Shown here one piece after another: positions 18,976 to 51,699 of a DNA stretch of 64,000 nucleotides. The stretch spans positions 19,217,001-19,281,000 of the forward strand of contig CM073321.1 in NCBI GenBank assembly GCA_037043015.1, written 5' to 3'. The notes beneath the pieces were generated by a model. That model saw only the letters and a program-made list of their open reading frames with translations, did no database searches and was not told the DNA's origin. The first letter of the stretch is position 1; the number at the start of each line of letters is the position of its first letter. This DNA comes from Bryum argenteum. Its lineage: Eukaryota; Streptophyta; Bryopsida; Bryales; Bryaceae. The position numbers were made by a program, and so were the translations under genes.

Positions 18976-19578
18976 GGGAGGCCAATATGATTTGCGGAAC
19001 GGCAACAGTTCTAGAGAAAAGGAAGGTGCAGAGACCGTCGACAACTTCAGGTTGAAGGGTACTCCAAACGTGGATGTGGCAGAAACGGTCTAACACATTG
19101 AGGAATGGTGTAAGTCCAGGACGACAGTATACTACCGTGTCAGCAACTACGGTGGGGATAGTTGACGAAAGAACAGGAGGGTGTTTGGGATCGGGAAAAA
19201 TAAGGTACTGAGATGGGGCTTGAGACATAGGGGTAGTGGAACAAAGGACGCCGTTCAACTCCAACACCACATTCAACCACTTGGGCATGAACCGGTGTGC
19301 ATTGAGTGATGGCACAGGCTGTAGGGGTTGACCGAGGGTTGTAGGGAAAGTCTTGCTTGAAGATTTGGACAATCTAGCCTGCAGCACGACAAATGACAAT
19401 AGTGGATGATATTAAAACAAGAGTGTTACCTTGTGAAATGCTGAAGCATGCAAATGACTGCTCGGAGTGATTGAGGACCGGACCACCACACCGACGCACA
19501 GCTCAACGTGGTCGGTGGGGGTTCTGGTGGCAAGCAGACGGAATAAGGTAATCAGAGGCGCGGCCTGATAGAGAATTG
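18976..19578 (-). pseudogene. FCP1/NIF-like (HAD phosphatase) gene fragment
   Basis: A minus exon 19578-19430 and a second exon from 19378 join in phase 0 across a 51-bp intron (AAG|GTAAC ... CTGCAG|GCT). The second exon reads PKWLNVVLELNGVLC, then VVYCRPGLTPFLNVLD and HIHVWSTLQPEVVDGLCTFLF, the order of the NLI-interacting-factor / FCP1 C-terminal-domain phosphatase fold. The nucleophile motif DxD is ELN here, so catalysis is unlikely. The second half of the domain is lost into the G-rich array at 18975. The upstream limit is an in-frame TAA near 19580. It lies downstream of the ParB-methyltransferase gene but after that gene's poly(A) signal, so it is treated as separate. Confidence 0.55.
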
Positions 19579-19656
19579 ACGATATTTAGCGCCAAGAATG
19601 AGGGAGAAGGACGCGGACGCAGTGCAGACGCAAGTGATAAAATAAAAAGTCTTCAT

Positions 19657-19662
19657 TTTATT
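19657..19662 (-). terminator. Poly(A) signal AATAAA of the 19.9-25.4 kb gene
   Basis: Minus-strand CATTCAATAAAATGAAG lies about 220 bp past the last open codon of the H3-mimic gene; a fitting 3' end. Confidence 0.45.
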
Positions 19663-21544
19663 GAATGGGATGTCACTACATGGTACTATCTACAATCGTG
19701 GCACACCTTCCAATAATTCGAGGACTAACTCGCAAGACCTACTCGCTGTCTTCAATGCCGGACTCCCGTAAAACAAGGAGCGCCGGCTTTAAGAATTATT
19801 ACAAAATGAAAAATCATACAAGCAGAGCAATAATATGAGCAGATGCTCATCAACCAGACAAACTGAAATTTAGGTCGACCCGACCTAAACAAGATTTGCA
19901 ACAATTGATAAGAAGCTCACCGTGGGATTAGTCGCAAGTACTGAGTTGAGTTCGTCGTTCGCAGAGTCAAGGGAGATTGGGGCACCCTGAACCGCTCTCT
20001 GTGCATCTTCCTGCAAGTCTTGACTACCCTCGGGAACCTCATGCACGGAGGTCGCACCAATGGAAACGGAGGTCACCAAGAGTGAAGAAGCACCGTCAAG
20101 AAGATCTTCATCTGCTCGTCCGTGGTCGCTTGCTTCGTAATCCACGTTGTAGTTTCGGTGGTGTGGCGTCTCGAGCGGATGAACGCCATCGTTTCCTCCT
20201 TGCTTGGCGATATGAGCTTCCGAACGAGATGCCTCACTAATGATCTCCTCAATAACAACGTCGGGTACTGGCGTAGCCGGAGCAGGAAGAATGCGGGCTG
20301 GAACTGCAGGATTCGGGAGTGCTGAGAGTTCGGGTGGAGTTTGGGTGGTGGAAGTTGAAGGCCCACAGATAGCCAAAGTAGGCTGATTGACGGGGTTGTA
20401 GGAGGCAAGGGGAAGAGCCACCTGTGCTATCTGCGTCAACAAGACCCTCAAATCGCTCAAATTGCCCAGAACTCTGGAATTTGAGTTCTCCAAATTCGAC
20501 AACTTCGACTCCACTTTGAGTTGATCTTCTCGCCGTTGCTTGTCCAACCTCGCAACATCTGCAAGTCTTTACGCCTCCCGTCTTTCATTTGTGGCTTCTT
20601 CTTCAGCTCGTTTGGCAGCCCTTCTCTCTTATTTTTCCTTTTGACGCAGAGCACGCTTGGCATCCTTCGAGAGTGGAACGGGAATGTTCGACTCAATCTT
20701 CACTCGCGGTTGTGAAGGTTCACCCTTCTCTTGCGGACCGAGACCAAGATTGATGAGCGGATCGTCAGCCTCCTTTGCTGGCGTGGGGGAATTCGGCTCA
20801 TCCGAAAAATCGAAAAATGTAGTCTCTACCTTCTCAGCAGGGTCGTCAGCGTGAGTATTCCAAACACCCCTCTTCAACAAAGGAAGGTACCGTCCGCGTA
20901 CATGGGCAGGAGCAGGTAATGCGAGCACAAGAGACGGCGGAGGCAGGGATGATTCTCTTGCAAGTGGCGCAGGCGGCGATGGCTCTCTTGCAAGTGTCGG
21001 AGGCGGCGTTGATTCCCTTTGTATTGCTGGTTCCGACGATGGGGCTTGCATGGGAGCCGGGGAGGAGACGACATCATCGCCCAAATTCATGGGAGAGGGA
21101 TCAATATTGTTATCCTCGTCAGACCCTGCAGTACCCTCCTTGGCACCCTCTTCGGCGTTCTCTTCGTCAGAACTATCGGAAGTAGGCGCATCTCTGGGCA
21201 ATCTCTCTTGCCCGAGAACGACCTCCTCCTCCGACTCAGACCCGAAAACATCAATTGTAGCCTTGGTGCGGGTCTCTCGACGATGATCAAAGTTCTCTTC
21301 TTCATTATCATCGTCGCTAAGAGTTTCGGGGAGGCCCGTGGAGGCGAGTGTCTCCTCAAGGAGTGTAGGGGGATTTAGGTCGATGCGACCTAAACCCCTA
21401 TTGCGGGCCATGGAGCCGCGACGCTCGACCAATGGAAGAACTTCATCAACGTCGTCATCGACGGGAAGATTTATCAGCAAATTCATGTAGACAGGATCGA
21501 TGCTCTGTATGGGCTCAATGCTTAAAGCCCGCACGCCAAAAGGC

Positions 21545-21860
21545 CCACTAGATGCACGACCACGACCACGACCACCGGATGAACGAGCGCCACCACGAGC
21601 GGGAACAGCGGATGAAGGACCGCCTTCACGGCTACCAGACGACGGATTACTACCACAACCAACGCCACTAGATGATGGACGACCACTACGAGTAAGACCA
21701 GCAGACGACGGATCGCCACCACCAGCAGACGATGGTTCGCGACCACAAGCCACAACAGGAGAGGATGCCTCACCACGACGAGTACGAACACCGGAGGACG
21801 ATGCATCACCACGACGAGCACGACCACCAGATGACGATGCCTCCCCACGACCACGACGAG
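21545..21860. repeat. Coding minisatellite in exon 4
   Basis: Degenerate 30-33 bp units encoding RRGEASSSG-type repeats on minus (Gly/Ser/Arg). They encode a disordered basic linker between the methyltransferase-like part and the acidic C-terminal half. Confidence 0.65.
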
Positions 21861-22044
21861 TAGATCCGGTAAACCCAGCCTCAGGCGAGCACCCAGGCTT
21901 CGGACCATAAACCCAATCTGGATTCATATAAGCGTCCACACAGAAGTCGTTCGGATCAAGATTAAAACTACTTTCTCGAACGGCTATGTACTTATCCAAC
22001 TCATCTTTGTCCTCGTAGACAATATGAGTCTGAAGATTAAGCAT

Positions 22045-22301
22045 CTGCAAAATGAAAACACAAAGTTAGTCAATTAAGAAGAACAGAAGAGCAGATGGGA
22101 ACTTGACAAAACATACATTTAGGTGGCATCGACCTAAACGCCCAAATCAGTGTCAAGTGTGAAGAATGCCAAGTAAATCTAGTGTACTTTATATTGAGCC
22201 GAAATAAATTGACAAGTAAAACAGAAGAGCAGATGCGAACTTGACAAAAACAGACATTTAGGTGGCATCAACCTAAACGCCCAAAGGAATGTCAAACTTA
22301 C
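22045..22301 (-). other. Intron 3 with two TTTAGGTGG/CGACCTAAA palindromes
   Basis: Donor ATT|GTAAGT and acceptor TTTGCAG|ATG. It holds two near-identical copies of a block with AAACAGAAGAGCAGATG and the interrupted palindrome TTTAGGTGGCATCGACCTAA (22118-22138, 22257-22277), so the intron grew by duplication. Confidence 0.65.
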
Positions 22302-23624
22302 AATTCCTGCAATCAGAGGCTTTGTTCCTGCCATGATCGACAGAAATTTGTTTCCTGGAACTGTAAACATTTGCAGTACGCGAATGTAAAACTCCAAGCG
22401 CAACTCGTTGTCGTTGATGTAGAAATTGAACTCCTTGTAAGCTCCTGGCTTCTGATATAGGGGCAACTCCGGGGCATAGAATGTCTCCGGAATTTCATCA
22501 AAAAGCTCGGATACCTGGTGGGTTCTCTTCAGAAGAAACAAGAGTGGAATGCAGTGTTTGTCCACGACCTTCCCCTCCAAGATACCGTTGAGAGGCTCAT
22601 TGTTCGCAGGAGCGTAGTGAACTTTCTTCGGCTTGCACAAATCCTTGAAAGCGTTGAAATATACAACAGCCTGGCAATGACGATCGGTAGTCTCCGTAAT
22701 AATAAGCCAGACGTCAGGATTCTTGATAGAGGGGTCATACACAGAATCCTTCCAAGCATTCAGGAAGTCATTGAAGTAGACATTCGAAATATCGTCCACT
22801 CTAGTACTCTGGCCCGAGACGCATTTGAGGTCGATAATGCCCAACGCGCATCTTCCATCGTCCCAACTATACCCATTATCCCAGCCAGCGAATTGAAATG
22901 TCTCAGCATCAAACATTCGCGTGTGAAGTTCTGGAGTTGGCAGCGAAAAATCCCCTTTCACTTCCAAAAATTTCTTGAAGAACTCCGCAGCGTACTCGGA
23001 GATCTCTTCAGAACTCTTGTTCTTCATCCTCTTTTGGCGGTAGTCGCTAAAGAACATGTCCTCGGGCACGGAAAGGAGCATCGACATGGTCTGCCAATTG
23101 ACGTTGTAATCGAACTTGAAAAACTTCCACTTTTCAACCACAAACTTATCGGCACTGTCGAATAACCCCAGTGCTGGCTTGATATTGTGGAACTCTCTTG
23201 CAACGCATTTCTTCCTCTTGCGCTTCTCCAGCCACACCTTTATCGAAACGCACTCCCAGTAGTTCAGCTTTGGTTTCTTCAAGGACACCTTGGCATACGG
23301 TAGGTCCCGATCCGGAGTCCTATTCAGAAGATGAAGCGCTAGTGTCTTGAAGTCTTGCTCCTCAAATCCAGACATTTGCCTGAAGGTATCGCGAGTCAAG
23401 ACGATGTCCTTGGATTTTAACTCCCAGTCAGGAGCCTGGTTGAAAGGCTCGCAAGTGTTGGGGTCGATCAACTCTCCCATCCTGACTACAATGATAACGG
23501 AGGACCACAGCTGGTACACCTCCTCAGAAGCGGTGATGATTTCTAATTTGTTGAGGAGGTCCGGTGGCTTCAAGAGCTTGTCAAGGGATTTCGTGTTGAT
23601 ACTCATGAAGCGTTTCACCATGGC

Positions 23625-23841
23625 CTCTTCAAAATCTTGAAGAAGAAAGAGCGACATCAATTCAAGAAGATGACGGGATGATCATTTAGCTCGAGTCCAG
23701 CTAAACGCACGGGATTTAGGTCGAGTCGAGCTAAACGCACAGCTAAACGCTCGCATCGACCTAAATACCTGAAATTTAGGTCGCGTCGACCTAAACGCCA
23801 CAAATCAAGCAGATCAAATTATAAGAAAATGCAGGACTTAC
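23625..23841 (-). other. Intron 2 with palindromic motifs
   Basis: Donor GAG|GTAAGT is strong; the acceptor (GAAGAG|GCC) is the one that keeps frame. It holds TTTAGGTCGAGTCGAGCTAA (23715) and TTTAGGTCGCGTCGACCTAA (23775) plus CTAAACGCAC copies related to the leader-intron satellite. Confidence 0.55.
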
Positions 23842-25395
23842 CTCATAGTTCTTTTGAGCGATAGCTTGTTCGATTGTTTCCCGATTGGACTTGGGCTTTA
23901 CACCACACTTCGTGGGCGACCCGTATTCTATCCAAACACTTCTCGCGGCCAATATGTTTGTAGCCCACGATGGTGTGAATGTTCCCGCGTTGTTGGACTT
24001 GTTCGCCATTATTGACACGCCCATGATCATCTTCGCGTCTAAATGCCAAACAATATGCGTCCGCCAAGTCTTCAAGGCGGTAATCTTATCCGCTGAGATT
24101 CTAGCCTCCTTGATAAGCTCCTTCGCAGCTTCGACGTAATGTTGCCCATCGATGACACGGAAGTTGCACTTTGAAGCGAGTAGTGCATCCCAGTCCCAAG
24201 TCGAAGGAGCCACAGAGATGATGGGCATGATGATGATGGTTTGTCTTGAATACAAATCGATCGAATTCGTTAGGATATTCTTGTAGTGCACAACTCCAGC
24301 GGGCTCAAGCTTTCCGACCATGAACCGCGCATCAGCTTTCTCGAGGACATCGATGTCCACATTGACAGGAGCCGAGTCTTTGCCAAAAACGTAACAAGGC
24401 TCGCACTTTTCCCAGAAGTCCTTCAGAGTCTTACTTGCAGCTTTGTAGTCGATGTCCTTCTCGGTTGTGGCATGCTTCATTGAAGGATTCATGTACGTAA
24501 TTGTACTGCCTGCCATATTACTCTTGATTCTCTTGGCCTGCTTAACTGGCGAGGGCTTCGAGTTGCGGCGTTTCCGCAAAGGCGTAGGAGTTACCTCAAT
24601 GGAGGCCATACCAGACCGCGTTGTTCTTAACCCGATACCCTCCTCAAAAGCAGGCACAAGTGCCTTCCTTGCGGGTGCTTTGCCTTTTGCCTTGCTTCTC
24701 TCGTAGTCGTTCAGGGAACTCCAGATATGCATGCAATACTGCTGGTAGGTCTGCACGAATTTCTTCGGAGAGCTAACATTCAGTATGCCACCCACAATGT
24801 GGTCTACGAGCCCCGCCTCCGTCTTCACGACCATGTAAGCCTTGAGAATGTCGTGGGAGTATCGCACTTCATTCGTAGGAAAGACGATGGTGAAGACGAA
24901 TCCACGAACGTAGGTCACCTTAAGCGTGTGTCTCCTCATAGTTGACCGAGTATATGAAAGTGTCGTTGCAGAATGGGAGATGGGCAGGATTAGTTCCAGA
25001 CTGTTGAAATAGGTGGAAAATTCCTTTCTCCTTCGGGTACAAGGACCACGACACAATGGAATTTGGCTTAGGAGTCCACAACATGCCGTATTACTCGACG
25101 TCCGCGACAGCAGAGGCAAGTACATCTGTGGGCTTGACAACTAGGGGCTCCAGGTATCCTTCAATAGTACTAAAGTCAAACGGTACCTGATTTTAAAGAA
25201 GCAACGAGAATTAGCTCGATATGCATATACTGGATATGAATTTAAAAACAAACCATCAGAATTTAAAAACCATCCATTAAAGTACAAGAAAAATTCATAC
25301 CTGATTGTCAAGAGGTTCATCTTGACTTCCAGAACGGATGTCCCTCTCTGCGGGAGCGGGAACAATTGTAGCAGTCTGCTTTGTGCGAGCCATGT

Positions 25396-26309
25396 CTGCA
25401 ATTCAGCGCAATAACTGTGCGTTTAGCGGGCAACTACCTAAAAGTTGTGCGATATCAAGCATCTACCTAACAGATGTGCGTTTTGGAGGTAGCTACCTAA
25501 AATATGTGCGTTAAGCAGGCATCTACCTAAAAGTGGTGTGTTTAGCAGGCACCTACCTAAAAGATGTGCGCTAAGAAGTCATCTATCTAACATCTGTGCG
25601 TTTGGAAGGCAGCTACCTAAAAGTAGTGTGTTAAAGAGGCAGCTAAGTAAGAGGTGTGCGATAAGGGGGCAGCTCCCTAAAAAGGGTGCATTTAGCAGGG
25701 AGCTACCTAAAAGCTGTGGGTTTAGCACGCTGCTAGCTAAAAGATGTGCGTTTAGCAGGCAGCTACCTAAATGATATGCGTTAAGAAGGCATGTACAAAA
25801 CATCTGTGCGTTAAGGAGGCAGCTACGTACGAGCTATGCGTTAAGGAGGCAACTACCTAAAAAATGTGCATTTAGCAGGGTGCTACCTAAAAGCAGTTCG
25901 TTTAGAAAGCAGCTACATCAATGGTGTGCGTTTAGCAAGCAGCTACCTAAAAGCTGTGCGTTTGAAAAGCAGCTACCTAAAAGCAGTGGGTTAAGCAGGC
26001 AGCTACCTAAAAAGTGTGCGTTTAGTAGGCAGATACCTAAAAGCTGTGCGTTTAGCTCGTGAAATTGGAGATACCAGTTTTTGCGACCTACAAGATGTGC
26101 GTTTAGCTCGTAAAATAGGATATACCTGATTTTGCGACCTAAATGCACACCCATCGACCTAAATGCACACCCATCGACCTAAATGCACACCCATCGACCT
26201 AAATGCACAATGTAAAATGAAGAGCGCGGAGTGTCGAAAAATGCAAGATTAGATTGGAATTGAAATGCAAATGCGTAAGAAATCGGAATCGCGTATGCAA
26301 ATAGCGTAC
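25396..26309 (-). other. Leader intron holding a 30-bp satellite
   Basis: The minus donor is AGCAG|GTACGC at 26309 and the acceptor TTGCAG|ACATGG ends 2 bp before the ATG. Donor context and downstream sequence match the leader intron of the plus-strand gene at 56426. The ATG context ACATGG is favourable for initiation. Confidence 0.6.
25425..26200. repeat. 30-bp satellite, GTGCGTTTAGCAGGC + AGCTACCTAAAAGCT
   Basis: More than 20 head-to-tail units with 10-25% divergence, ending at 26150-26210 in four short GACCTAAATGCACACCCATC units. The reverse complement matches the array at 56545-57525. Most ORFs called here are repeat artefacts. Confidence 0.9.
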
Positions 26310-26770
26310 CTGCTAAGAGTGGAGAGAGCAAAAACAAGCGCGCTTGAAATGCTGAGACCCTAGCCGCACATCAGGGATCAAAACAAGCACGTCATAATCG
26401 GAAAGCAAGAACCCCAGGTCAATCGCAGCAGTAGAAACAAGAGGAGCAGCAGTAGGAGCGCGCCAACGAGGAGGACGGCGTTGATCGAGCAGAAGCAGCG
26501 CGCAACAACGAGGAGGACAGCGACGCGATAAGAGGGCGACATTGAACACCAGCAGGAAGACGGCAACGATCGGCGCAAATGCGCAAAGGTGGGAGGACCT
26601 GCGACGAGGAGCACGAAGAAAAACAGATTGGCGAGGAGTTGCAAAGGGCAAAGGTGGGAGGAGCGGCAAACGGCGAGGAGCACGAAGAAAATTAGATAGA
26701 GAGTGTCGGCGGGGCGCTTGCGCGGGAGATGTCGGCGACCCCGCCGGCTACCCAAGGTAATGGCCACATG
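26310..26770 (-). other. GC-rich non-coding leader and CpG-rich promoter region
   Basis: CpG-rich purine stretches (CGACGAGGAGGACGG-like) sit directly 5' of the leader-intron donor. By comparison with 55777-56425 it is the first exon or promoter of the H3-mimic gene. Overlapping ORFs on both strands are arginine- or leucine-rich and look spurious. Confidence 0.45.
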
Positions 26771-27019
26771 GCGGCTGCGCGGGCTCCCTTACGGGCATTA
26801 GGCGGCGCTAGGCAGGGTTGTCTTATTAGACACAATTTTGGGAATGTCTGTCTGATTTGTCGTATTGGACATGTCTGTTAGACGTCGAGTCGACGAAAAT
26901 GTCGACGGTACCAAAAATTACATAGTAAAAAACTTGCTGAGATTTACCTTGAGGTAAAAAGCTATTTTCCTACGTGGCGTAGGGTTGATAATGACGTGGA
27001 AAATCAAAAAACACGTCAC

Positions 27020-27212
27020 AGTGGGCGACCGCCGGTGGGCGACCTCGCTAGGCGACTAGCGGTCGCACCGGGGCGAACGTCGGTCGCCTACTGCGACCGC
27101 CGATCGCCCTGGCTGCCGCGAGAAGGTGACCGGCGGTCCAGTATGGAAAACGGCGGTCGCCCTAGCAACCGCTAGTAGGCGACCGCCGGTCCAGTACTGA
27201 GCGACCGACTGT
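27020..27212. repeat. GCGACCG palindromic array 1
   Basis: About nine units of GCGACCGCCGGTC / GCGATCG variants in both orientations. No gene start is adjacent in either direction, so it is an orphan array. Confidence 0.85.
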
Positions 27213-27239
27213 GAGAGCGTGTTATACGCTCTCTTGTTA

Positions 27240-28700
27240 AAATGTTGTTTATTGTGGTTTTAATCAATGAGGATTTAGCAAACCATGTCATTTTGAAGTA
27301 ATTTGATGGAATTAGGATAATCTAGTTATGAATGTAATATGAATGTTAAGGGTTAGTTGGTGGAAGGCTTTCGGTAGATTGTTTGGCACGAAATTAAGCT
27401 TTAGGGTGTGGAAGGGCTAGAGGAGGAATGAATCCCCCTAGTGGATCCATAGTTCGATGGGGAATGACTAGAGGAGGAATGAATCCCCCTAGTGGATCCT
27501 TAATTAGAAATAGGGTTAGTTGCTTAAAATAGAGTTGGACATTTTACCCTTGGCCTTTCACCTCTAACCTTTGATGTTCATGTTAGTGTTTATGATTGAT
27601 TGTCTTGGTTTTATTCACTTCACTTTGGATGATATGTGTGAGCTACTTCCATTGGTAGAGCCGGTGATGGATTGGATGCTTGGAGGACGGAGCGCGTGAA
27701 GTAGTGGTGGCATTCATCCAAGAGACCTTAGTAGGGCTTTGAGCCTTAGTTAGGGTTAGGGTGAGCCGCCTTTTTGGCGGCTCCCATTTGGTACTTAATA
27801 GCTTGTTTCCAAGCTATCTTCACCTCTTCCATTTCCTCTTAGTTTAGGTTAGAGTAGGAGAAGGGAGGCCTTGGGCCCCCTTCTCCTCCATTTTGTTTAC
27901 CTACCTATTCATCTATGTAGTTAGGAGGAGGAAGGCCATGGGCCTCCTTTTTCTCTTTGTTCACCTTGATCATCTTTCTTGAAGTGTTAGTAGTTAGGAG
28001 AAGGAGAGCCCTTCTCAAAATGATCTTGTTGTTGAAGTGTTAGTAGTTAGGAGAAGGAGAGCCCTTCTCAAAATGATTTTGTTGTTGAAGTGTTAGTAGT
28101 TAGGAGAAGGAGAGCCCTTCTCAAATTGCTTGTCTTGCCTCACTCATCTTCCTCCTCCTTATTTAGTTCCTTTGTTATTAAGATAAGAGCTTGTTCTTGC
28201 CCTATGAAAGCCAGCCAGATTGTTTCCCCCATAACTCACTCGATTTTTCTTCAACTCCTTTGAGATTTCTACACTAGATAGAGCTCCAGTAGAGCTTTCC
28301 AATGGTATAAAGCATGCTCAATTCCGAGTTGTAGAGAGGGAGATATGAGCTTCCAAAGTCGGGGTGTTGAAAAAGTTTTCCCCCCGGCAGTGGCAAAAAC
28401 CGCCACAGTCAAACAGCAATCAGTCTTAGCTCGTTGATCTTCTGCCTTTGAGATTTTAGGGGCGGGTGCACATTGAGCTTAGCTTTCCAAAAAGCTATGG
28501 CACGCCCCATTTGGACCTAAGACGAAGGAATGGTAATCAAAAGAGTAGAGACCACTTCCAAGCCATCCGGCCGGTGGTTCTCTTCTTCTTCTTCCCTATT
28601 TCCTTGTCTTCTTCTTGTCTTTCCTTCTTCCCCTCTTCTTTTCTCATCTAATCTTGCTCTTCAAAACCCCTTGTGACCAAATGCCACCTCATGGTGGTTT
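27240..28700. repeat. Non-coding repeats, possible LTR remnant
   Basis: Two direct copies of GGCTAGAGGAGGAATGAATC at 27407-27507 and three 50-bp copies with GTTAGTAGTTAGGAGAAGG at 27979-28130. The 28230-28500 segment (CCAATGGTATAAAGCATGC, GAGGGAGATATGAGCTTCC) resembles the downstream part of long plant LTRs seen also near 9470. No coding capacity. Confidence 0.45.
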
Positions 28701-28710
28701 TTGGGTTCAC

Positions 28711-28843
28711 ACCGACGATCGCCCAGGGCGATCGTCGGTCGCCCTGGCAACCGCTATTACGCGACCGCCGGTCTAGTACTTAGCGACCGACGATCGCCCA
28801 GGGCGATCGTCGGTCGCTTATGGCTATCGGCGGTCGCCCTGGG
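28711..28843. repeat. GCGACCG palindromic array 2 with long hairpins
   Basis: Contains a perfect 29-bp palindrome (28711-28739) and a perfect 37-bp palindrome (28782-28818), both centred on an A in GATCGCCCAGGGCGATC. It lies at the 3' side of the hAT element at 29-32.5 kb, whose 5' side has array 3. Confidence 0.85.
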
Positions 28844-29197
28844 GGTAGCGCCCATGTGACCAGCACTATGGTTGTATATGAAACAAGAAAAATATATCCA
28901 TATTGGTACAAAATGAGCTTCAAAGCATTTTTATGAATACATTTTTAATTGGAAACAAGGTCAATGGTGCATTTCATAGTACAAATTTGCGCATGTCTAT
29001 AATCATAGTATTCATATATATGATGTAACTATTACATATACCAAACTATATGTATTATACTCCCGAAACATACTAGGATACCAAAGTATTGTAAGCTAAT
29101 AGTTGCCCTACTTGCAGTACATTGTAGTATTGTACCGAGTACTAACAATGAACTTCGTGCTTCCAATCCAAAATAACAAAATTCTAATAACCCGTCT

Positions 29198-29970
29198 TTA
29201 GGTATCCTTCAATGTATACGTATCGTCGCTTGACACTTCATCTGCGTTTGGATCGGTTTCACCTAGAGAGTCATCGGTGCTTTGGTCGCCATCCTCGTCT
29301 TCATCCTCTGTCTCATTGCGTACTTCACACTCAACCTCACTCGCCAAATTGCACAATTCCGTGTCCGTGGTTGTTTTCTTGTTCACTGTAACGAGGCGCT
29401 TCAAGGGCCGTGAAGCATTAGTGATCCCGTTTGCGTTCAGTGGTAGATGGCGCATTGTACGTGTATTCGGATTATTGGATGAAGCAATCCCAAAGATGGA
29501 CTTCTTCATGTACACGTGCTCCCTTTCCGACATCGTCGATCGTGTGCCTTCCTCAAACGCTTCGCCTCGTGTAATACGATTGCGAGGTTGTGTAGATGGC
29601 CCGACGTCTCGTGCGCTTGCACCGCCAATGCCCGGTTGCATGTTGGACTTGTTGGTTCTATCTTGACCTCCATCTTGGGCAATACCATACGAGTTGTATG
29701 GGCCCCTTTAGGTTGGGTAACCCTTGAGAACAATTGTTGTAGAGGTACATCGGAGTCATCTCCGTTAAGAGTTGAATTCCTTGATCGAATGGTTGAAACT
29801 CTAGGTGACCCCACTTCCATGCAACCTGAATTGGATACATCGTTAGGTTCCACTTTAATTTGGTCCATTTGAACTCCTGTCGTGGTAACCGTGCCCTTCA
29901 CACTCTCAAGTTTATCGTCGTTGTTAGAGTGTGGGCTGCCTTTAAGTGGACCAATGTTCTCTTCATCCAT
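29198..29970 (-). pseudogene. Second ORF or C-terminal extension of the hAT element, one frameshift
   Basis: From ATG 29970 (MDEENIGPLKGSPHSNN) the minus frame runs to about 29640, then continues one frame over (PGIGGASARDVGPSTQP) to 29198. The product is hydrophilic, with SUMO-site-like IKVEPND and VKIEPTSP motifs and an acidic end (NETEDEDEDGDQSTDDSL). It starts 24 bp after the transposase stop, so it may be a distinct accessory protein or a former tail of the transposase. No known domain. Confidence 0.5.
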
Positions 29971-29993
29971 CCGGTTTACCAAGTCTTGTTTCG

Positions 29994-32301
29994 CTAGGCA
30001 GTACTCTCTTGGAGTTGTAAATTTGCCACTCCTTCTCCTCCTTCGTGTCGGGCAAATACCGCAAACTGGCGAGGCAGTTGTGGAACATCCTGGTCGTCAT
30101 CGAACTCAAACGGGTCCTTGACATGAATAGTCATGTTTCCTTCGTTGTCGTTCCAATTCTCTAGGTCGTCGTGTTCGCTACCGTCATTGACATAATTGTC
30201 GTCATCCGCCTCCGAGTTATCCATGAATACACCATCATCCCATTCATTGTCGGGTACATAGTCTTCTTCGTCAGAGTCCTCTTCTTCTAAGTAATTTTCG
30301 TACCACGTTCTCGGCGATCTGGTACATTTCTGGCGCTCGAGTTTGGCGTTCGCATAGATGTACACAAGGTCCTCTGCTTTGGAAGTTGACAACCGATTCC
30401 TCACTTTGTTGTGCACGAAAGAGTACATGCTCCAATTCCTCTCACATGATGAAGCTGAACATGTCAATGCCAAAATCCTCTTCGCAATTTTTGGCAAGGC
30501 ATTCCCCCCGACTTGATGCCACCATTGATGTGGTAACAAGTCACAGTGAGCTGGATCAGGGGCCTCTGAATTGGTGTTAAATGGACCCGTCCTCTCCTCA
30601 TATTGTATGAGTTCCCGCACCACTTCCTCATAGACCACTCCCATTGGGGCGCTAAGCTTCCTTATGACCCGGTTTAAAGCTCTTCTTGCTTCTCCATTGT
30701 TTTGAATTGCTCCAATATTTGTCAAATAAGGGTTCAACAAAGCTGCTGCATAGTGGAGGTCTGTGAGCATCATCTCCCATCGTTTTTGAAATGCATCCTC
30801 GTATTTTGTAGCAATGTCGGGGGATAGTTCGAATGGAGGTTCACGCAAAGAGAACACGTGTTCCTTAAGGTCCGACATGATCACATACGCCCTGGGCATG
30901 GCTGGTACTTCCCCGTCGAACTCCCGAAGAGCTAGGAGTACTGGTTCAACTACTTTGACAAACTTCGTACAATTCTCCCAGAACTCATCGCTCCTAATGC
31001 TAATCCGCACATTCCTTGCCTTTGTCTGTAACTGGTGACTGTTTTGCCTGTTGAACAATGTTTGGACAAACACATGCCACTCCGGATCGATCACCATGTT
31101 GTTCAGAGGTTGTTGTAGCTTTAACAACCGCTCTATCATCAAGTAGTTTGTTGCAAATCGAGTCTGGGGTGGTACCTTGAGCTGCAGCTTCGGCGAGTAC
31201 TTCCTGAATAGAGCAAGGGGGACGTGGGACCCCTTAATAAATGTGCACACTCTCTTGGCTTGCTCCACCAATTGCAATACCCACGCCTCTTTCCCCCAAT
31301 CTTCGAGAAGGAGGTCTAGAATATGTGCCGCACAACCTTGTCCATACAAGTGAGGATAGTCTATCTGCAACTTCTCCACAGCACCTAACATGGAGCTTGC
31401 ATTGTCGGTGCATATCTGCACGATGTTCTGTGGTCCAACCTCCTCTATGTACTTCGCCATTTCATTTGCCGCATAAGCAATGTCCTTTTTCTTCCCTGTA
31501 GTATCCACTGATCCCAAAAACACCTCTCCCACTGGGCAAACAAGCATCATGTTAATGAGTGGTCTGCTTGTGACATCGGACCACCCATCTGAGCATATAG
31601 TTCCTCCGTACTTCTCGATAGAAAGTTTTGTTCGATCCTCTACCGACCTTTGCACAAACTTTCTTCGCCTCGAGCATCGTAGTCCTAATAGCATGATACG
31701 AGGGTGGTTGATATCCACCAATACGGCCTTTCTCTGTCTCTTGAACGACACTTATGAATGCTGGATGTCGTACGACATTGAATGCAATGTTTGCCTCATA
31801 GAAAAATGAAGCCCACTTTGCATCCAAATTTTGCCTAATGGCAAGATCAAAACTATCCTCCATACTCCTTTGCCCATGTCGCCGTCCACTAGAGAGTGTA
31901 GAGATCCTTTGTCCATTGCTGCCATGACTCCCCTTGTTAGAAGATGGCACCTGATTAGACCTTAGGTTAGGGGATGGCACTTGTACAGAGTTGATGCGAG
32001 GGGTATCTATGTTCTCTGTAGTTTCCCTTGCCGCATATGGTATGCCGGCATCCACTCGTGAGTCAGGAACAACATCCGCATAAGAAATGTTGTTCTTTGG
32101 AACTATCCCTCCGCAGTCACGGAATAGCTCGAGAACTCCACGGGGCAACCTCGTACACCGGGGTAATGGGGAATTGTGAGGATATCCGAAATGAGCTAAT
32201 GCTCGTTGCCTTACAAAGACTGTGCTTTTCCCACAGAATAAGCACACGCGAGTATTTGGCTTGTCGTTCCGTTCGTGGATACTCGTAGCCACTCGTCCCA
32301 T
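29994..32301 (-). pseudogene. hAT transposase, nearly intact, one frameshift
   Basis: From ATG 32301: a BED-like finger (CLFCGKSTVFVRQRALAHFGY), a Ser/Asn-rich linker, then FFYEANIAFNVVRHPAFI. The frame shifts by one base near 31635-31655 (around GCAAAGGTCGG) and continues for over 500 codons: catalytic DUF659 part with CSDGWSD and CTDNASSM, QGCAAHILDLLLEDWGK, and the hAT dimerisation region (LHYAAALLNPYL, LPHQWWHQ, ASSCERNWS, NRLSTSKAEDLVYI), then an acidic tail. Family length is usual (about 750-800 aa). A single indel could be real or an assembly error; otherwise the gene is intact. It is closely related to the dead copy at 5064-6997. Confidence 0.85.
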
Positions 32302-32527
32302 TTGCGATCGTCTCTTCTATTATCCGGTACCCGTTGGATTGGGAAGAATGCTCCATGTTCTCGAACCGCACCTCCGCTTGCCGCAATGAAACCAAAGTGA
32401 CGACAACACGCACTACAAGGGCTCAAGTTACTCTTTGCACATATAGACCGAGCGGGGCTTCTCATGGGGAGACCCAAGACAACGGGCCAAGCGCAAAGAA
32501 AGTGGCTTCGAGCACATGAACGACTCC

Positions 32528-32535
32528 TTATATAC
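32528..32535 (-). promoter_or_regulatory. TATA box of the hAT transposase
   Basis: Minus-strand GGAGTATATAAGGAGTC lies about 230 bp before ATG 32301 and directly beside array 3 (32541-32700), so the array occupies the immediate upstream promoter. Confidence 0.5.
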
Positions 32536-32540
32536 TCCAC

Positions 32541-32700
32541 AGCCAGATCGGCGGTCGCCACAGCCAGATCGGCGGTCGCCCTAACAACAACGCTGTCGCG
32601 CCATGTGAACCGGCGGTCGCCCTGGCGTTGACTTCATCGCGCTAGCTGGACCGCCGGTCGCCCTAGCCCTACCCAGTTGGACCGCCGGTCGCCTTAGCGA
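32541..32700. repeat. GCGACCG palindromic array 3
   Basis: Six units, mostly ATCGGCGGTCGCC or GGACCGCCGGTCGCC, starting 6 bp upstream of the TATA box of the hAT transposase. Confidence 0.85.
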
Positions 32701-33236
32701 TGACAGATTGTTCGGACGAAGAGCACTTTACTCTCCAAGTCAAATTCCATGGTCCACCGTCCACGTAGTACAGCTATTATTAACTAGAATCCCGGAGACC
32801 ATGTGGCTCAAAAATGTTTGATTCGCAATAATGCTTTTCTTTGAAAAGAAAAAAAAATAATAATAATAAAGGGAACATGCGAAGGCAAGAGAGAGAACAA
32901 TAAGGACTCATATTAGAAACTAGAGTTTTAACTTCTCTTCCTCCAAATCCAAAAAATAAAGTGATGAATATTGCTCAATCCACGTTTCCTAAATAATTAA
33001 GAATGATAAAAATTGCCATGTATCAATGATGGTACCTCGGACATTGAAGGTTTTTCCTTTATGCTTATACCACATGCAATAGTGAGATTTCATTCACCAA
33101 GAATATTTAAATTGAAGAAAATCAAAAACTTCATATTCACATTCAACGTTTTTGCATACAAAATGGCAATTGCACTTAGTGTTTGGTATTGAGTACACTA
33201 CTTTTCTACAATTGCTAAAAAAACGTGATTAACTAA
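32701..33236. other. AT-rich spacer
   Basis: No gene seen. It separates the hAT promoter from the 3' end of the next minus-strand gene. Confidence 0.5.
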
Positions 33237-33949
33237 CTACCACCATTCTTCGCTTGGGCCCCCTTCATTGTAAAGTTGGCTTGGCCCCCCTTCTGTACAA
33301 ACTTGGCTTGGCCCCCTTTCATCAAAATGTGCATGACCTTCCTCCATCGTTTGGTTCGGCTCCCCTTCATCCACTTCTCGCCTTTCGGTCCCTTCTTCTT
33401 CCGAATCTGACCAAACTATGTCCTCATCAGGGATTCCTCCTTTGTAACCCCTAGGTGTTGTAAGCCCTTCTCGTGGGTTGGCCGCTGGATAAGGAGCTCG
33501 CGGAATATGGGGTTCTGTTGGCCTAATTGTTTGAGGGGATTTTTTAAACGTCCTCCAATCCACGTCCCTCTGCAAAATTACCTCCGCGTACACCATTTGT
33601 GCTATGCTGCACGAAACCTCGTTGCTCACCACATGCACACCGGCGTAGAGGAACTTCCACACTTCAATGCATCGTTGCACAAATTCATCGTGATGGCAAT
33701 AGTGCAAATTTGCGCAATTCAAAGTAAGCGATGAAACTCGTGACGATAGTGTGGAAACAAATGGCCGATGTGGCACCAAGCAATGTACCACTTGCAAGTC
33801 TTAAGGGTCCACGGTTCCTCTACTTGCACCAACCCCGGAAAAGCCTGTAGCGTGGGATCTATGGGAATCTTGTGAAATCTCCTTTGCATCTTTCCTTTTC
33901 TCTTGCGGTCCTTGTCTCTCGCTATCTTCCGCTCCTGGCTAGGCGTCAT
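33237..33949 (-). pseudogene. 'WCHI' family gene, short copy with one frameshift
   Basis: From ATG 33949: MTPSQERKIARDKDRKRKGK, then FPGLVQVEEPW, YIAWCHIGHLFPHYRHEF. One indel near 33725 moves the frame to LNCANLHYCHHDEF, QRCIEVWKFLYAG, VYAEVILQRDVDW, then an acidic tail ending in three GGPSQ-type repeats. It is very similar to the copy at 36875-38424. There is no coiled coil and no RING, so it is a truncated or different family form. Function unknown; the basic start suggests nuclear or nucleic-acid binding (inference). Confidence 0.6.
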
Positions 33950-34224
33950 GGTCACCGAAATGCTAACGAAGGAAGAAAGTTTTTAAACTAACTCAAAAAA
34001 AAGTTATATCTATTCCGTGGACTAACACAGAATTTAGAAAACTCGAAAATCGGGCAGCATGTATGTGTGAAATGCACACGTGAGGCACATGTGTGCCAAT
34101 CACCGCACGCTCTAGCGCTCGAACAAGCAGGCGGCAACCAGAGGTCGACACCAGACAATGCGCAAGGCCCGACACGTGGAGGTGAGAAATGGCGACTGGC
34201 GGTGTCCGCGCGCGTATATGTAAC

Positions 34225-34440
34225 CCTGGTTCTAGGGCGACCGCCGATCCAGCTGAAAGGCGAGCGTCGGTCGCCAGGGCGACCGCCGGTCCACCTAGTC
34301 TGCGACCAATGGTCAGAGGGCGCGACCACCAAGTGGGAGGGCGCGACGTATGCGTGGGGGCGCGACCTCTGGATCGCGCGATCGCCGATCCAGCTGATGG
34401 GCGACCGGAGGTCACTGGGCGACCGCCGGTCCACCTCGTG
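34225..34440. repeat. GCGACCG palindromic array 4
   Basis: About eight units (GCGACCGCCGATCCAGCTG, GCGACCGCCGGTCCACCT) 280-490 bp upstream of the minus-strand start at 33949. A weak TATA-like ACATATACG on minus (about 34210) lies between array and gene. Confidence 0.85.
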
Positions 34441-35882
34441 AGCAAGTACTAACCTTCCTCCCAGCGTGTGTGTCAAAATTTTCAAAGTAGTAACGAATGT
34501 ATATAATGACTTTTGGTGGCAAGTATTTGGAACCATCAAAACTAAAAACAAAAAAAAATTTAAAAAAAACATATATATATATATATATGTGGGGCAATAA
34601 TGTGATTTTAATACTTGGACTTCCTAATAATGACCCTATGAAAATGATATATAAGTAAAAAGGGAGTAGAAGGGGTGTTGATAACTTTCCTAGGTGATTC
34701 ATATGGTGTAAAAAATATAATATAAATCTTAGGGGCACAGCAGGAATGAAAGTATTTTTCCCGAATTTCCAAAAATTAAATAGTCATGTGAAAGTAGGCG
34801 TTGTGCGCACATGCATACGAAAACAAAGTGGGGAATGTAATTTGAACATTTGGACTACACTAAATAAGTACATTAGTGTTAGATTTTTATAAGATTTGAA
34901 AATGCTACAAGTTTTTACTTTTGGGATAAAAATTTTACCAAGAGTATCGATTCCAATACTATGTAAGGATCCCCATCTTCACCTTTGTAGAGGGTACAAA
35001 TATTGACTAATAGTAAAAACTTATAGCCTATTTATGTATATTAGTGTATCTAACACTAATCTACCTATTTAGTGTAGGTAATATGGATCATATAAAAATG
35101 ATGGAACCATCAAAAATATTATAGGACAACCTGTACTATTTTTCCCAAATTAATATAGAATTTTCGAAGTAAGTAGAGCTTTAAGTAATAGATAAAAAAT
35201 AGTTAAATGGAGAGAAAAAATATTTTAAAAAGAATTGGACTATGTAATAACTACCTTATGAACATGATGGAGCTATAAAAAAAAATCGTTGGAGTAAAGG
35301 ATCTATAGGGTGGATTTAGATTGCAAGCACTTAGAAACACCAAAACTTCAAAACATAAGAAAAAATAGATAAAGGGGGTAAGAGGATAATTTAAACCCTT
35401 AGACTACCTAATGATGACCCTATGGAAATGATGGTGTTATTTAGAAAATCGTGGGGATATCTCATCTATAGGTCATCATTTACTTGTAAGTCATTTGAAT
35501 GAGTAGAATATTGAATGATATACGGAAAATAGATTTGTGGAAAGAGATAACGATTTTAAAACTTGTGTTGACTAAAAAAGACCTTATAAAAATTATGGAA
35601 GAACAAAATTTCCCGTAAAAGAAACGTATCTACATGTTATGATTTACTTTGACTTTGTAGGATGCTAAGTAATAGAGGAAGTTATACTAAAGGGGGGAGG
35701 AGGTGGTTTTATTATTTTCTCTAACCGTATTAAATATATTAAATCATGAAAGAAGCCACATGGAACTTCGATTTACATGGAAGGAAATACTTGGTGTTAA
35801 TTTGATTCAACCTTGGCTAGTGTAGGTCTATAGGATACTTGGTGTTAACTTCATTCAAAACCTCCAAATCCCGCGCCCGCCA
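34441..35882. other. AT-rich non-coding DNA
   Basis: Several weakly similar blocks with CCTATGAAAATGAT and GGACT-CCTAATGATGACC (34610, 35270, 35400) suggest an old degenerated repeat. No supported gene. Confidence 0.5.
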
Positions 35883-36142
35883 ATACAGCGGATGGACGAA
35901 CGTCGGTCGCTAGGGCGACCGCCGATCCAGCTGATGGGCGATCGTCGGTCGCTAGGGCGACCGCCGATCTAGCGAACGACTGTGACAGGGCGACCGGCGG
36001 TCTACGTGATGGGTGCACCAAGGAGAATAGTGTCCGCGAGCCTCCGCCACCCTCCTGCTGGGGCGACCGCCGGTCCAGGCGATGGGCAACCGCCGATCCA
36101 GCGAACGACGATGACAGGGCGACCGGCGGTCTACGTGATGGG
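35883..36142. repeat. GCGACCG palindromic array 5
   Basis: Around ten units including a duplicated 50-bp block with GACAGGGCGACCGGCGGTCT and ACGTGATGGG (35985-36012 and 36112-36142). No adjacent gene start; orphan array. Confidence 0.85.
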
Positions 36143-36874
36143 CGCGAATATCTGCTTCCCCCCCATTTGCTACAAATCTTTTTCTGCATATTTGAAATCA
36201 TGTACGAATCATTGCCTTTCGAGGTTTTGGGGGGTTTGTAAATATATTCATTGACTCTAAATACTTGCAACTAAATCCCACCATATATTTATACGTAACT
36301 TTTACAACTTAGTTACGATTCCAAATTTTTACAAATTATTTATCATTACTTCATCGTGGATTAATACTAATCAAAGCTTTCAAAAATTCAATATCATTAT
36401 ATATACATATGGAATGGTATACACGACATAATTTTCTAAAAGACCATTGTCCAAAGTATCCACCAACGTACCAACATACAAACCTACCAACTTAAATAAT
36501 TACGAACCTACATACCATTCTAAGAACCTTATTTTAGATATTTCCAAATCATGCATTTCAAATAAAAAATAAACAAATAAAAAGAATAAACAAGATGATT
36601 AAAATAACACCGTGCGCATATATACAAATAATAAACATAACATCGTTCAACGGGTATCTTACTCGTAAAAACATATCATATAATCAAAAAGATACATTGT
36701 ATAACATCCAAATTTAGCACTTATCTCCCAACTTTCATTTCAAAATAAAATAAAGTAAATGGATATAACCAACACACCAACGTCTTTCTAAAACTTGATT
36801 CCGCTTACTCTAATCTTCTTCCATTGTACTTTAGATTTTTTTAGATGGTACCAGCTCGACATTTCTCCTTTGTC
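36143..36874. other. AT-rich spacer
   Basis: No gene seen; includes short poly-A/T tracts. Ends at the 3' end of the coiled-coil gene. Confidence 0.5.
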
Positions 36875-38424
36875 TTATTTGCAATACATAGATCTTCGAT
36901 CCTTGCATTTAAGAACCTCTCCTCTTCTCATGAGCACAAGTAGCTTTTTGACCAACTCCTCAGTTGTTTCATTGCGCTGTGAACTTTGACCCTCTTCTGC
37001 AATATCCACGGTTCCATCTATTCCATTGAGGACTAACTTTTCCTTGTTCCCCTTCAATCTTATTGATGCTAGGTTCACCCTTTCGATCTCAGCTCTCAAG
37101 GCATCGCATGCCGAAATGAGTTCCTTTAGCTCCTTCTCAAAATGACCTTGGTCCTTGGCTCCTTCAACCATAAAATCCTTCTCGCGACCCCAATCATTGA
37201 CCACAAACCATTCGTCGACGCGCTTGTATCTCCTATGCACATCCTCGAAATGTTTCGTCTTCTTTATGAGCTCTTCCTCATAATCGACCTGATCCGATGC
37301 AACCAGAGCTGGGAGAACATTCGTCGCCTCCTCTTGGATCTTCTTTTTTCCATCCTTGATTACCTCTATGTCATGTTGGAGTTCAACACACTTTGCCCGT
37401 TCGTATGACAAAGCATGAAACACATATATTCATAATCCTCATAAGCCTTGTTTAACAACTTCATCTACGAATCATCGTTTTCATTCGGGCGTTTCGCTTT
37501 GAAGACTACTTGAACTTCCTTCTCCAGCTCTACTTCTTCATTTCCTTCTCTTTCTCGCTGTTCAATCGTTTCCATTGGATATTCTAGAGTCCCATCCTCT
37601 ACGCTAACATTTGTTTGAGGAGAGGCGCTCATAGCGGGCCGAACTATAACTTCAAGTGTTCCCAAAGTACAAGCACCAAACATTGCTTCAACCTCCATGT
37701 ATTCAATGACATCCGCTTCTCCTTCTGTTCGTAGGTCCTCGATGTGCTTCACAGGTGCATCAATCACATCCAAATCTTGCACGCTTGTTTCACCCACATG
37801 AAAGTGTTCGACGCCACCAATAGAACCTTCTACAAGAGGAGTATGATGCTCCCTCTCCTTAACCTCTTCTTCATCAGAATTAGGATTTACCCAAACATAC
37901 ACATCATCAGCATCCCCATCTTTCCGATGCCTTGCTGCCGTAAGTCCTTCTCGTGGGTTTTCTGTCAATGGGGCTCTTGGAATATCTTGCTTGGTTGGAA
38001 GGAAGAATTGAGGCGATTTTTTCATTGAGCTCCAATCCACCACTTTCTCCAATATTACCTCTGCATACACCATTTGAGCATTATGATACGAAACCTCGTT
38101 CTTGGTGACATTCTTGCCTTTATAAAGGAACCTCCACACTTCAATATATCGTTGCACGAATTCGTCATGCTTACAATAGTGCAGATTTGCAGCATTTAAT
38201 TTCAAGTGCGTCTCATGTCGAAAGTGTGGAAACAACTTGCTGATGTGGCACCAGGCGATGTAATTCTTCACTGTTGTCTGACTCCACACACCCTCTTCGG
38301 TCTCCCACCCCGGAAAAGCGCGTTGAGTGGCATCTTGGAGAATACGGTGATTCCTCTTCTGTGTTTTTCCTCTCTTCTTGCGTCGCTCCCCAAGTACTAT
38401 TTTACGTTCCGCAATTGTAGTCAT
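36875..38424 (-). pseudogene. 'WCHI' family gene with coiled-coil C-terminus, one stop and one frameshift
   Basis: From ATG 38424: MTTIAERKIVLGERRKKRGK, FPGWETEEGVW, YIAWCHISKLFPHFRHET, AANLHYCKHDEF, VYAEVILEKVVDW, then an acidic linker to RPNENDDS and a TAG at 37465. The same frame goes on (MKLLNKAYEDYEY) and after an indel near 37415 continues as SYERAKCVELQHDIEVIKDG, a long coiled coil to 36875. The same join (LSKA... then heptads) exists in the copy at 40458-41712, so the two ORFs were one protein of about 500 aa. The stop could derive from CAG by one transition. No RING downstream. Confidence 0.65.
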
Positions 38425-38622
38425 TGTTACCTCCGATCACGGATATGCCGCTATGATGTGAAGTTAGATACAAAACACCAAACATGGTGCAATCCACGTT
38501 GGCCTCCAATCGAGCAAGCAAGTGGCAACTTTGAGTCGACACCAGACAATGCGCAATTCCACGGCACGTGGACTGAAAAGTGACGACTACGGCCTATTAC
38601 GATTGTATTTAACCTCCTGTGG

Positions 38623-38800
38623 CAGGGCGACCGGCGGTGTCCCGGCGACATCGTTAGGGCGACCGCCGGTCCAGTGTTTCTTGCAAGACTCGCTCCAGGG
38701 CAACCGCCGGTCCAACTGCAGGGCGACTGCCGGTGCAGCTTCAAAAGAGTTTCGATACAGCCAGAGCGGAGCGCTTCGGGGCGACCGGCACTCTGCAGGG
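38623..38800. repeat. GCGACCG palindromic array 6
   Basis: Six to seven units (GCGACCGGCGGTGTC, GCGACCGCCGGTCCAG) starting about 200 bp upstream of ATG 38424. A TATA-like GGTTAAATACAA lies on minus between them (about 38615). Confidence 0.85.
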
Positions 38801-40107
38801 GCGACTTCGCGAGAGCTCCCGCTCTTTTTCTTGGATCCTCTTTATGCAATATTCAAATTTTGAATTAACCGATTCAAGCATCTCCCCCATTCCCCCCTTC
38901 AATCCCCCTCATCCCCCCTCATTCCCTCTCATTCCCACTCACTTCTTCCTATATCTCATTCACAATTGAAAATGATTCTCATGGTCATGGGCATTTTGCC
39001 AAGAGCGGTGACCATGATACATGAAAAATGATTTTATTCTCATTGGATACTCTTGTGGTGTAATATGGATTTAGATCGATACAAGTTTAATCACAATTTA
39101 CAAAATTATAATTTTCAACATTCTCAAAATTCTTAACATAAAATACTCATCAAATATTGGTTCCAAAAGTAAGCTCAGTAATGGGTTGATAAGAATGTCC
39201 GCAAATCATTAGTCTTCTTCACTTCAAATATTTACCTTTATATATTGGTCACTCATTTTTTCTCCAAACATATAATATGTCATGATATATCACCTTTTAA
39301 TTTGGTAAGCAACTATTTCTCTTAGTGCTTTCTAGGGTATATGCACTAATTCCATTCACTTAATTGTATTTCAAAACCTTATTTTTGACTTGCCAAAATT
39401 TTCAAATTCCTCCCCCCACTCAATTTAACCAATTTCATAATGTTATGAGCCCATAAACTCATTGCAAGGATAATCTATCAGTCGGATATTATATACGGAG
39501 ATCTTATAATATATTAAAGGCTCCACTGATATAAAAAGAAACTAGAAATTGTTCTTGAATGTGATGTTAAAATATGAGGTGCAGTTTTGGTACAGAAATG
39601 GTATCTTATTTAGATGCTAGGAATTGACTACCTTGGATTACATGCTTAGATTGTAGGTATTGAATCGTTAGATTCATTAAAGTGTTTTCATGCATTGAAG
39701 AGGCTGATGCTCTATAAATGATTTCACATTTTATCAATTATTATAACTGATTAGGCACGATATGACTTCTTAAAATATACACCATACAAAATAATATATA
39801 CCATTCATGCCTACAAAGAGGACGAAAAACTCTCACCCCATCCTTCCTCCCATTCATTATTATCCATTTACACATCTCTTGTCCATTTCTTAGGAATTGA
39901 ATGATCATAAAATGGGAATTATGGGACCCACGATCCGAAATTCCTACCCTATGCATACATTCCTAATTTTTAAAATTAATACATTATAAACTAAAGGGCT
40001 CTTTTATTCCTCCCCCATCCAATATTCATCCTCATCTCATGATTCTCATCCTCGTAGGAGCTGCTATGAAACCTGATGCCCTCGCATTCAACACAAATAG
40101 GTGAAAT
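38801..40107. other. AT-rich spacer with a C-rich tract
   Basis: 38880-38945 has a CCCCC/TTCA-rich microsatellite (CCCCTCATTCC units). The rest is AT-rich without supported genes. Confidence 0.5.
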
Positions 40108-40335
40108 AGGGCGACCGCCGATTCAGCTCGTGGGCGAACGTCGGTCGCTAGGGCGACCGCCGGTCCAGCTTTGGGCGAACGTCGGTCGCTAGGGCGACCG
40201 CCGGTCCAGTTCATGGGCGAACGTCGGTCGCTGGGGCGATCGGCGGTCCAGATAGGGCGATAGCTGGACCAGCGGGCGACCGGCGGTGCACATTTTGTAG
40301 ACCGCCGGTCGCCTTATCACTGTGCTTAAGAACGC
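40108..40335. repeat. GCGACCG palindromic array 7
   Basis: Nine units; the long form alternates GGGCGACCGCCGGTCCAGC with TGGGCGAACGTCGGTCGCTA, so the real period is about 44 bp made of two inverted half-units. It lies 120-350 bp upstream of the plus-strand start at 40458. Confidence 0.85.
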
Positions 40336-40457
40336 GACGGGCAGTCCATTTTCACACTTTGCAAGTTCCTCCTTTTCGCGCATTGACTAGTATCGACTTC
40401 AGAGTTGCTGCTTGCTTGCTCGTAGAGGGACTTTGCGTTTTTCTACGAATTTTTCTT

Positions 40458-41712: not shown

Positions 41713-42426
41713 ACGCAATCGACGTTGATTTGGAACCGCAACGATCACTTTTTTCAAAGGGCAAGGAAAAAGTTGAAGATTCTTAACGTAGAGGCGATGG
41801 ACTTACAACCCCAACATTCACCAAACGATATTTGATTTACGTTATTTAGGTGTAGGGAAAGTGTACGTAATTTCTTCTATGTACTTTTTCGCATACACTT
41901 TATATATGGAAGTTTGTTTTTAGCTTTCATCATGCGTAAGTACGTGTTTGTGCATTGGTACAAGGGGTTGGGCGGGTTATATGGACTATGAAGATGTAAG
42001 ATACAATAAAAGCTGACAAAGTACAATCGATAGACCACAAGCAAAGGAGCGAACCAAATACATACCATTGATTTAATCGATGCAAAAAGTAGTACAATAG
42101 GAAATGAGATACATTGTTGCGCAAAAAGCTACCACTCGATAATACTATAATGGAATATAGTCCTATATAGCTAAAACCATACGCTATGCTCGAGTGTATG
42201 GATTCACAATATCGTAATTATCATTCACTAGGCTGAGGGTTGGAGCATTCTCCAACAAGAAGTTTGCGCTTTGCACGAGTTCGATTGAATGGACCATCCG
42301 CATTTAAGATCGGATCTAAAACTCTAGAGTCTTTCAAGTCCCGCAAAGTCCTTTTTGTGAGGGGACTATGTACATCCAAGAAATAGTCTAGAGCTTGAGA
42401 CTCGGTATCGTGGCCCCCAAGTAGAC
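41713..42426. other. Spacer between convergent family genes
   Basis: No supported gene. A short plus-strand open stretch (42436-42645) lies inside the next gene's antisense and is ignored. Confidence 0.45.
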
Positions 42427-44556: not shown

Positions 44557-44684
44557 GGATGAAATAGCCAAAAATGGCAAATAGTTATTACCTACCCCGC
44601 ACGAGCATGCAGCCAATTCAATGGATGTAAGACAACGCGCTAGGCCAGTAAACCCAAATAACAAGTTTAGGTACTATGGGGGAA

Positions 44685-51000: not shown

Positions 51001-51015
51001 GTAATCGGTAGTACA

Positions 51016-51690: not shown

Positions 51691-51699
51691 TGACGTGAT

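Follow-up and report, generated by a model that had tools for sequence, protein, structure and literature searches.

The first exon of a giant two-gene plant transposon begins like histone H3, possibly by convergence

In the 64,000-nucleotide stretch of the Bryum argenteum genome analysed here (the window), a gene on the minus strand opens with a start that matches histone H3. Our findings suggest that this gene encodes an accessory regulator carried by a giant transposon, and that the N-terminus of the protein would have converged on the H3 tail without capture from a histone gene, a reading to which we give a probability of roughly 0.54. Exon 1 starts the accessory gene of a two-gene, ~22-kb plant DNA transposon. 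Parsimony on the tree suggests that in one lineage the N-terminus became MARTKQTA by substitutions, and codon models suggest that moderate selection then preserved it, to about the same degree as the remainder of the protein. Judging from the anatomy of the element, the accessory protein is most likely a VANC- or TnpA-like factor that regulates its own element specifically or counters its silencing, and its targets would be the 30-bp arrays that precede both genes, together with related motifs in introns. The Ala-Arg-Thr-Lys start may serve as a short functional N-terminal motif of this regulator, for which binding by an H3 reader is possible.

The features of the window are as follows.

18978..26813, minus strand: left half of the window transposon copy, from comparison with other copies
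18978..19378, minus strand: predicted exon 5, first part of a NIF/FCP1-like phosphatase domain, ending at 18978 in the window copy (acceptor read by eye)
19921..22044, minus strand: predicted exon 4, rich in Arg, Gly and Ser, with acidic stretches (open frames and acceptor; donor read by eye)
22302..23635, minus strand: predicted exon 3 (open frame and splice sites)
23842..25186, minus strand: predicted exon 2, with a stop and a frameshift in the window copy (donor read by eye)
25187..25300, minus strand: intron 1, 114 bp, GT...AG, phase 0, donor and acceptor retained in most copies
25301..25393, minus strand: exon 1, MARTKQTATIVPAPAERDIRSGSQDEPLDNQ, residues 2-8 equal to H3 A1-A7
25415..26056, minus strand: tandem array (30-bp unit, 21.4 copies) immediately 5' of exon 1
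26814..47680, no strand assigned: nested insert of 20.9 kb with a hAT/DUF659 gene and other repeats, splitting the element
47681..61416, plus strand: right half, with AT-rich core, promoter region, DUF7869 gene and right end, from comparison with other copies
56606..57526, plus strand: tandem array (30-bp unit, 31.6 copies) 5' of the DUF7869 gene
57917..60777, plus strand: divergent DUF7869 gene, candidate transposase, frame interrupted in the window copy (PF25273, E 2.2e-34; open reading frames)
61391..61416, minus strand: right terminal inverted repeat, CACGTAATTCATTATAATGGGAATAT read inward, from the shared 26-bp ends

Read directly from the window sequence, the minus strand from 25393 to 25301 gives MARTKQTATIVPAPAERDIRSGSQDEPLDNQ followed by GT, which confirms the sequence-only reading that the exon opens MARTKQTA; the residue after the seven shared with H3 is T, where H3 has R. 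The frame resumes after intron 1 (AG at 25187) as VPFDFSTIEGYLEPLVV. Removal of Met before Ala would expose a free H3-like N-terminus. The identity to the start of H3 is present in the sequence of the window and of other copies, and the free N-terminus is predicted. A search of the genome with exon 1 returned 91 places at E ≤1, the window included, and all 91 first exons were read. The nearest in-frame stop 5' of the ATG lies 12 nt away in 75 of them (TGA in the window), the start context GAC-ATG-G occurs in 72 and GT directly follows exon 1 in 73, while of the 87 copies in which exon 2 was located, 72 have AG before it. These counts indicate that the start and the exon 1/2 junctions are conserved, so the good ATG context and clean splice junctions previously noted for this one exon appear to extend to its relatives.

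That the gene belongs to a mobile element, as had been proposed from the window letters, is borne out by inverted ends, by a DUF7869 partner gene and by at least 91 first-exon relatives. Copies L031 and L109 (the latter downstream of L032) finish at their 3' ends with an identical 26 bp, which also closes the right half of the window copy at 61416. This terminal repeat has 732 sites in the genome at ≤2 mismatches, against 0 for the control. The 100 sites listed, all on genome contig C1, form 21 inward pairs less than 45 kb apart (median 22.2 kb); 18 of these listed pairs hold an exon-1 copy and 13 hold both genes, so that terminal inverted repeats bracket the exon-1 gene in many copies. Similarly, at least 50 of the 91 exon-1 copies have a DUF7869 relative on the opposite strand 9-34 kb upstream (69 rows at ≥86% identity among the 143 matches listed), compared with 4 for a control arrangement; the other 41 are without a DUF7869 partner among the matches listed. 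The DUF7869 stretch upstream of copy L028 had been considered a chance neighbour, since other copies were without it at the same place, and the genome-wide positions overturned that view. The element is therefore a two-gene, ~22-kb inverted-repeat DNA transposon with divergent genes. A first look at the genome gave 1812 DUF7869 candidates (150 scored), and 14 control genomes gave none. An open-access literature search found no paper naming DUF7869, and so no described family to set beside the element here, whose partner gene carries this domain (PF25273).

The window itself holds a dead, split copy and not a working gene: exon 2 closes after 31 codons and is followed by a frameshift, the DUF7869 frame is interrupted, and the far (left) end is missing. 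If the element has a function, other copies must supply it. Among those compared, the positions that correspond to the two edges of the 20.9-kb insert sit within about 4-75 bases of each other, and the insert thus splits a single element. An element confined to 18978-26813 was ruled out, as other copies extend in both directions and the second half was found in the window; no convincing inverted or direct ends were seen inside that stretch.

Exons 1 to 5 of the accessory gene would form one transcript. Of 21 copies that were read at length, 7 keep exon 2 open for at least 430 aa; five of these start MARTKQTA, L024 carries A7P and L038 is without the ATG. Their pairwise dN/dS in exon 2 is 0.17-0.65 (21 pairs). 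Exon 2 had no match in Pfam, NCBIfam or PDB, and domain searches recognised no DNA-binding domain in the accessory protein. A resemblance of the exon-2 stretch RVIDGQH to ParB was considered and set aside, as no domain or structure search backed it. At the other end of the protein, the NIF domain was measured in copy L023 (PF03031, E 9.5e-11). DxDG is the motif of active NIF/FCP1-type enzymes; the NIF-like phosphatase domain is probably inactive because LELNGVL occupies the usual DxDG place.

A regulatory role is suggested by the two arrays. Their units agree at 27 of 30 letters and run in the same sense relative to their own genes, a likeness reached in 0 of 20000 shuffles. The associated motifs are largely confined to the two element halves, which hold 27 of the 27 window occurrences of GACCTAAA, 23 of 24 of CTAAACGC and 13 of 14 of CTACCTAAA. 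Within the left half, only 2 of 25 GACCTAAA/CTAAACGC sites fall in predicted exons, although exons make up 68% of it; the other 23 lie outside them, introns 2 and 3 included. VANDAL21 of Arabidopsis, with its protein VANC21, is likewise a multi-gene plant DNA transposon with an accessory protein, and the reported targets of VANC21 (PMC5735166) are tandem repeats rich in a motif, placed in the non-coding DNA of the element itself, a layout that we also find here. The genes differ, with a DUF7869 partner and a NIF-domain accessory protein in the present element, and the likeness is one of layout; none of the Pfam matches obtained for the scanned window proteins was to a Mutator family. The 30-bp arrays could instead be targets of the DUF7869 protein.

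The copies are concentrated on contig C1 (44.1 of 258.8 Mb), which carries 75 of the 91 and is possibly a poorly recombining or sex chromosome. Sorting the 91 first exons gave clades A (55), B (11) and CD (25), with N-terminal peptides of the type ARTKQTATIVPA and the sister-lineage counterparts ARTKMTAT, ARIKSTAR and ARTRTTAR. MARTKQTA stands exactly at the start of 42 of the 91, all in clade A (41 read at a fixed offset, and L060 by the pattern search), and a 43rd element copy with it lies outside this set at C1:27928635. In clade B, 5 of 11 copies read exactly MARTKMTA, and clade CD comprises MARTRTTA (6), MARIKSTA (5) and others; R8, as in H3, occurs in 22 of the 25 CD copies and in none of A or B. 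The ARTKQT start is lineage-specific, because sister lineages start otherwise, some with a long open exon 2. For instance, L039 (431 aa) starts MARTKMTA and L074 (473 aa) starts MARTRTTA, both with intact splice sites. The expectation that homologues keep the ARTKQT start consequently holds for the 42 copies and fails for relatives such as these two.

On the tree rooted with CD, for which 77 of the 91 rows were used and 14 dropped, parsimony places the origin of Q5 once, from the Met of B, and the exact identity to H3 would therefore be derived and in essence confined to clade A. The broken copy L091, which is among the dropped rows, carries Q5 and groups with B, so that Q5 may have arisen a second time or the copy may be mixed. 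L092 and L105, both of clade A, no longer have KQT or QT, and no indel interrupts the motif in them. L061 and L092, also of clade A, share an odd motif variant, CACTGC...AGCATCGCT, in which the Lys is removed.

Selection on the start was assessed in three blocks of exon 1. Across the 77 rows, amino-acid to silent changes were 39:21 in codons 2-8 (8:5 on internal branches), 31:22 in codons 9-16 (7:5) and 98:26 in codons 17-31 (27:5). Codon models for the whole family gave omega values of 0.84, 0.64 and 1.05 for the same blocks (n=72, the 77 rows minus 5 more with stops). In clade A, omega for codons 2-8 was 0.37 (2dlnL 6.3 against omega=1; n=54 of 55). In the 49 clade A rows that are in frame throughout, it was 0.30 for codons 2-8 and 0.66 for 9-16, a difference that is not significant (2dlnL 1.2), and 1.01 for 17-31 (2dlnL 3.7 against 2-8). 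With codons 9-31 taken together (omega 0.95), codons 2-8 were weakly more constrained (2dlnL 4.1). In CD, codons 2-8 gave 1.09 (n=24), and the difference to clade A is not significant with all alignable rows (2dlnL 3.5). With fewer rows, L092 and L105 being left out, the three blocks gave 0.19, 0.66 and 1.01 in clade A (n=47) and 1.25, 0.44 and 1.00 in CD (n=17). In this smaller set, 2dlnL for codons 2-8 of clade A is 11.8 when compared with neutrality and about 7 when compared with either codons 9-31 or CD; we rely on the values from all alignable rows.

Exon 2 of clade A, in its first 30 codons, has omega values of 0.07-0.55 by blocks (n=41). The heptapeptide in clade A thus appears to be under moderate purifying selection, which exceeds that on the second half of exon 1 and is no stronger than elsewhere in the protein. 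The codon models, comparing clade A with CD and with the other blocks, show no special H3-type constraint on codons 2-8.

Next to convergence on a functional motif, pure coincidence has to be weighed: the block of codons 2-16 may be constrained for other reasons (start context, localisation or an intraprotein contact) and equal H3 by accident. The rarity of the match speaks against this explanation. A degenerate DNA pattern for MARTKQTA, with Ser also allowed at Arg, occurs 55 times in the genome (258.8 Mb, 25 contigs), 12 times at H3 loci, 43 times in element copies and nowhere else, and the reversed pattern, used as a control, occurs 0 times. In a prokaryote collection of 257 Gb it found 18 stretches, namely 5 with MASTKQTA, 8 H3-like and 5 other short or unrelated frames of 15-100 residues. 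By this count, about 0.005 matches are expected by chance in a genome of this size, at any ATG, which makes a chance match within one genome unlikely. This figure, however, ignores the number of famous motifs that are open to notice, and the match had to arise just once in the family. An approach by steps, through MARTRTTA and MARTKMTA, also suits coincidence, as do the similarly few internal-branch changes in codons 9-16. We regard an accident of this kind as possible, although we would bet against it.

True mimicry would mean that, after Met removal, H3K4 readers and writers treat A1-R2-T3-K4 as they do the H3 tail, binding or methylating it, and are thereby recruited to the element or titrated. 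The exact seven-residue match at the very N-terminus and its retention in 42 copies are consistent with this idea, as is the Lys that occupies the K4 position of 51 of 55 clade A copies (at a fixed offset, with L060 and L061 read one base out) and 10 of 11 in B. The omega of clade A in codons 2-8, which lies below that of codons 9-31 and below that of CD, points the same way. Yet only 14 of 25 CD copies have the Lys, which argues against a family-wide H3 role, and I3 and S5 are seen in part of CD; the contact residues A1, R2 and K4 are not conserved across the whole family. Family-wide, no positions within codons 2-8 vary more than those of K4 and Q5, with 8 amino-acid changes each against 2-6 elsewhere. 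The non-significant contrast between A and CD and the constraint in exon 2, which is at least as strong, also weigh against mimicry, which we consider improbable. A more specific version, in which the accessory protein of the most abundant lineage sits on the arrays, offers a working H3 tail there, and draws H3K4 readers or writers or blocks silencing machinery that detects unmodified H3, would keep the element open by a counter-silencing device made from a seven-residue H3 mimic; it is a long shot as well.

Precedents for such imitation exist. The SNAG motif is N-terminal and resembles H3 without being identical to it. Proteins with the SNAG domain, such as Snail and GFI1, are likewise non-histone proteins with an H3-mimicking motif, through which they bind LSD1 according to PMC8080763; here, by comparison, 7 of 7 residues are identical to H3, and the protein is transposon-encoded and is not known to bind a reader. 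Similarly, the ARKS motif of SARS-CoV-2 ORF8 is a short H3 identity proposed as mimicry, a proposal disputed in the title of PMC10833455; that case concerns a virus protein, and ours a plant transposon protein at its N-terminus.

The sequence-only reading suggested as one option that the transposon had captured the opening codons of an H3 gene from its host. This origin is very improbable and was rejected on the tree and on DNA comparison of the window copy with 7 H3 genes, since the first 24 nt agree at 19-21 positions, as expected from the shared protein alone, the following 69 nt at 16-19 and the 40-nt leader at 7-12, near chance, while the sister lineages are without Q5, which appears to have arisen by substitution from a nearest lineage with Met, a step from ATG to CAG that takes two base changes. 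The accompanying view that the rest of the protein is unrelated to histones stands, with no H3 similarity past codon 8, no Pfam match in exon 2 and no histone fold found.

If mimicry were true, this would be, to our knowledge of the open-access literature, the first transposon to carry the exact N-terminus of H3, and a demonstration of how posing as chromatin could keep an element active. Even without it, a plant transposon of 22 kb whose two genes share 30-bp arrays represents a second VANDAL/VANC-like architecture, and counter-silencing by motif arrays may therefore be more general.

Several other features of the window deserve mention. In the AT-rich core, a 355-bp unit at 52300-52654 has inverted copies of the terminal repeat at its ends (4 and 2 mismatches) and resembles a MITE of this element family. 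The nested insert contains a hAT-type transposase frame at 29994-31751 on the minus strand (DUF659, E 9.3e-34; hAT dimerisation domain, E 2.6e-6) and, at 45925-46794 on the plus strand, an open frame that encodes a protein-kinase domain (PF00069, E 4e-9). A 748-aa open frame at 42430-44673 on the minus strand gave a RING-finger match under the curated cut-off. A 419-aa frame at 40152 matches DNA 3' of copy L032 (L109), and a frame at 38002 resembles it, as judged by eye.
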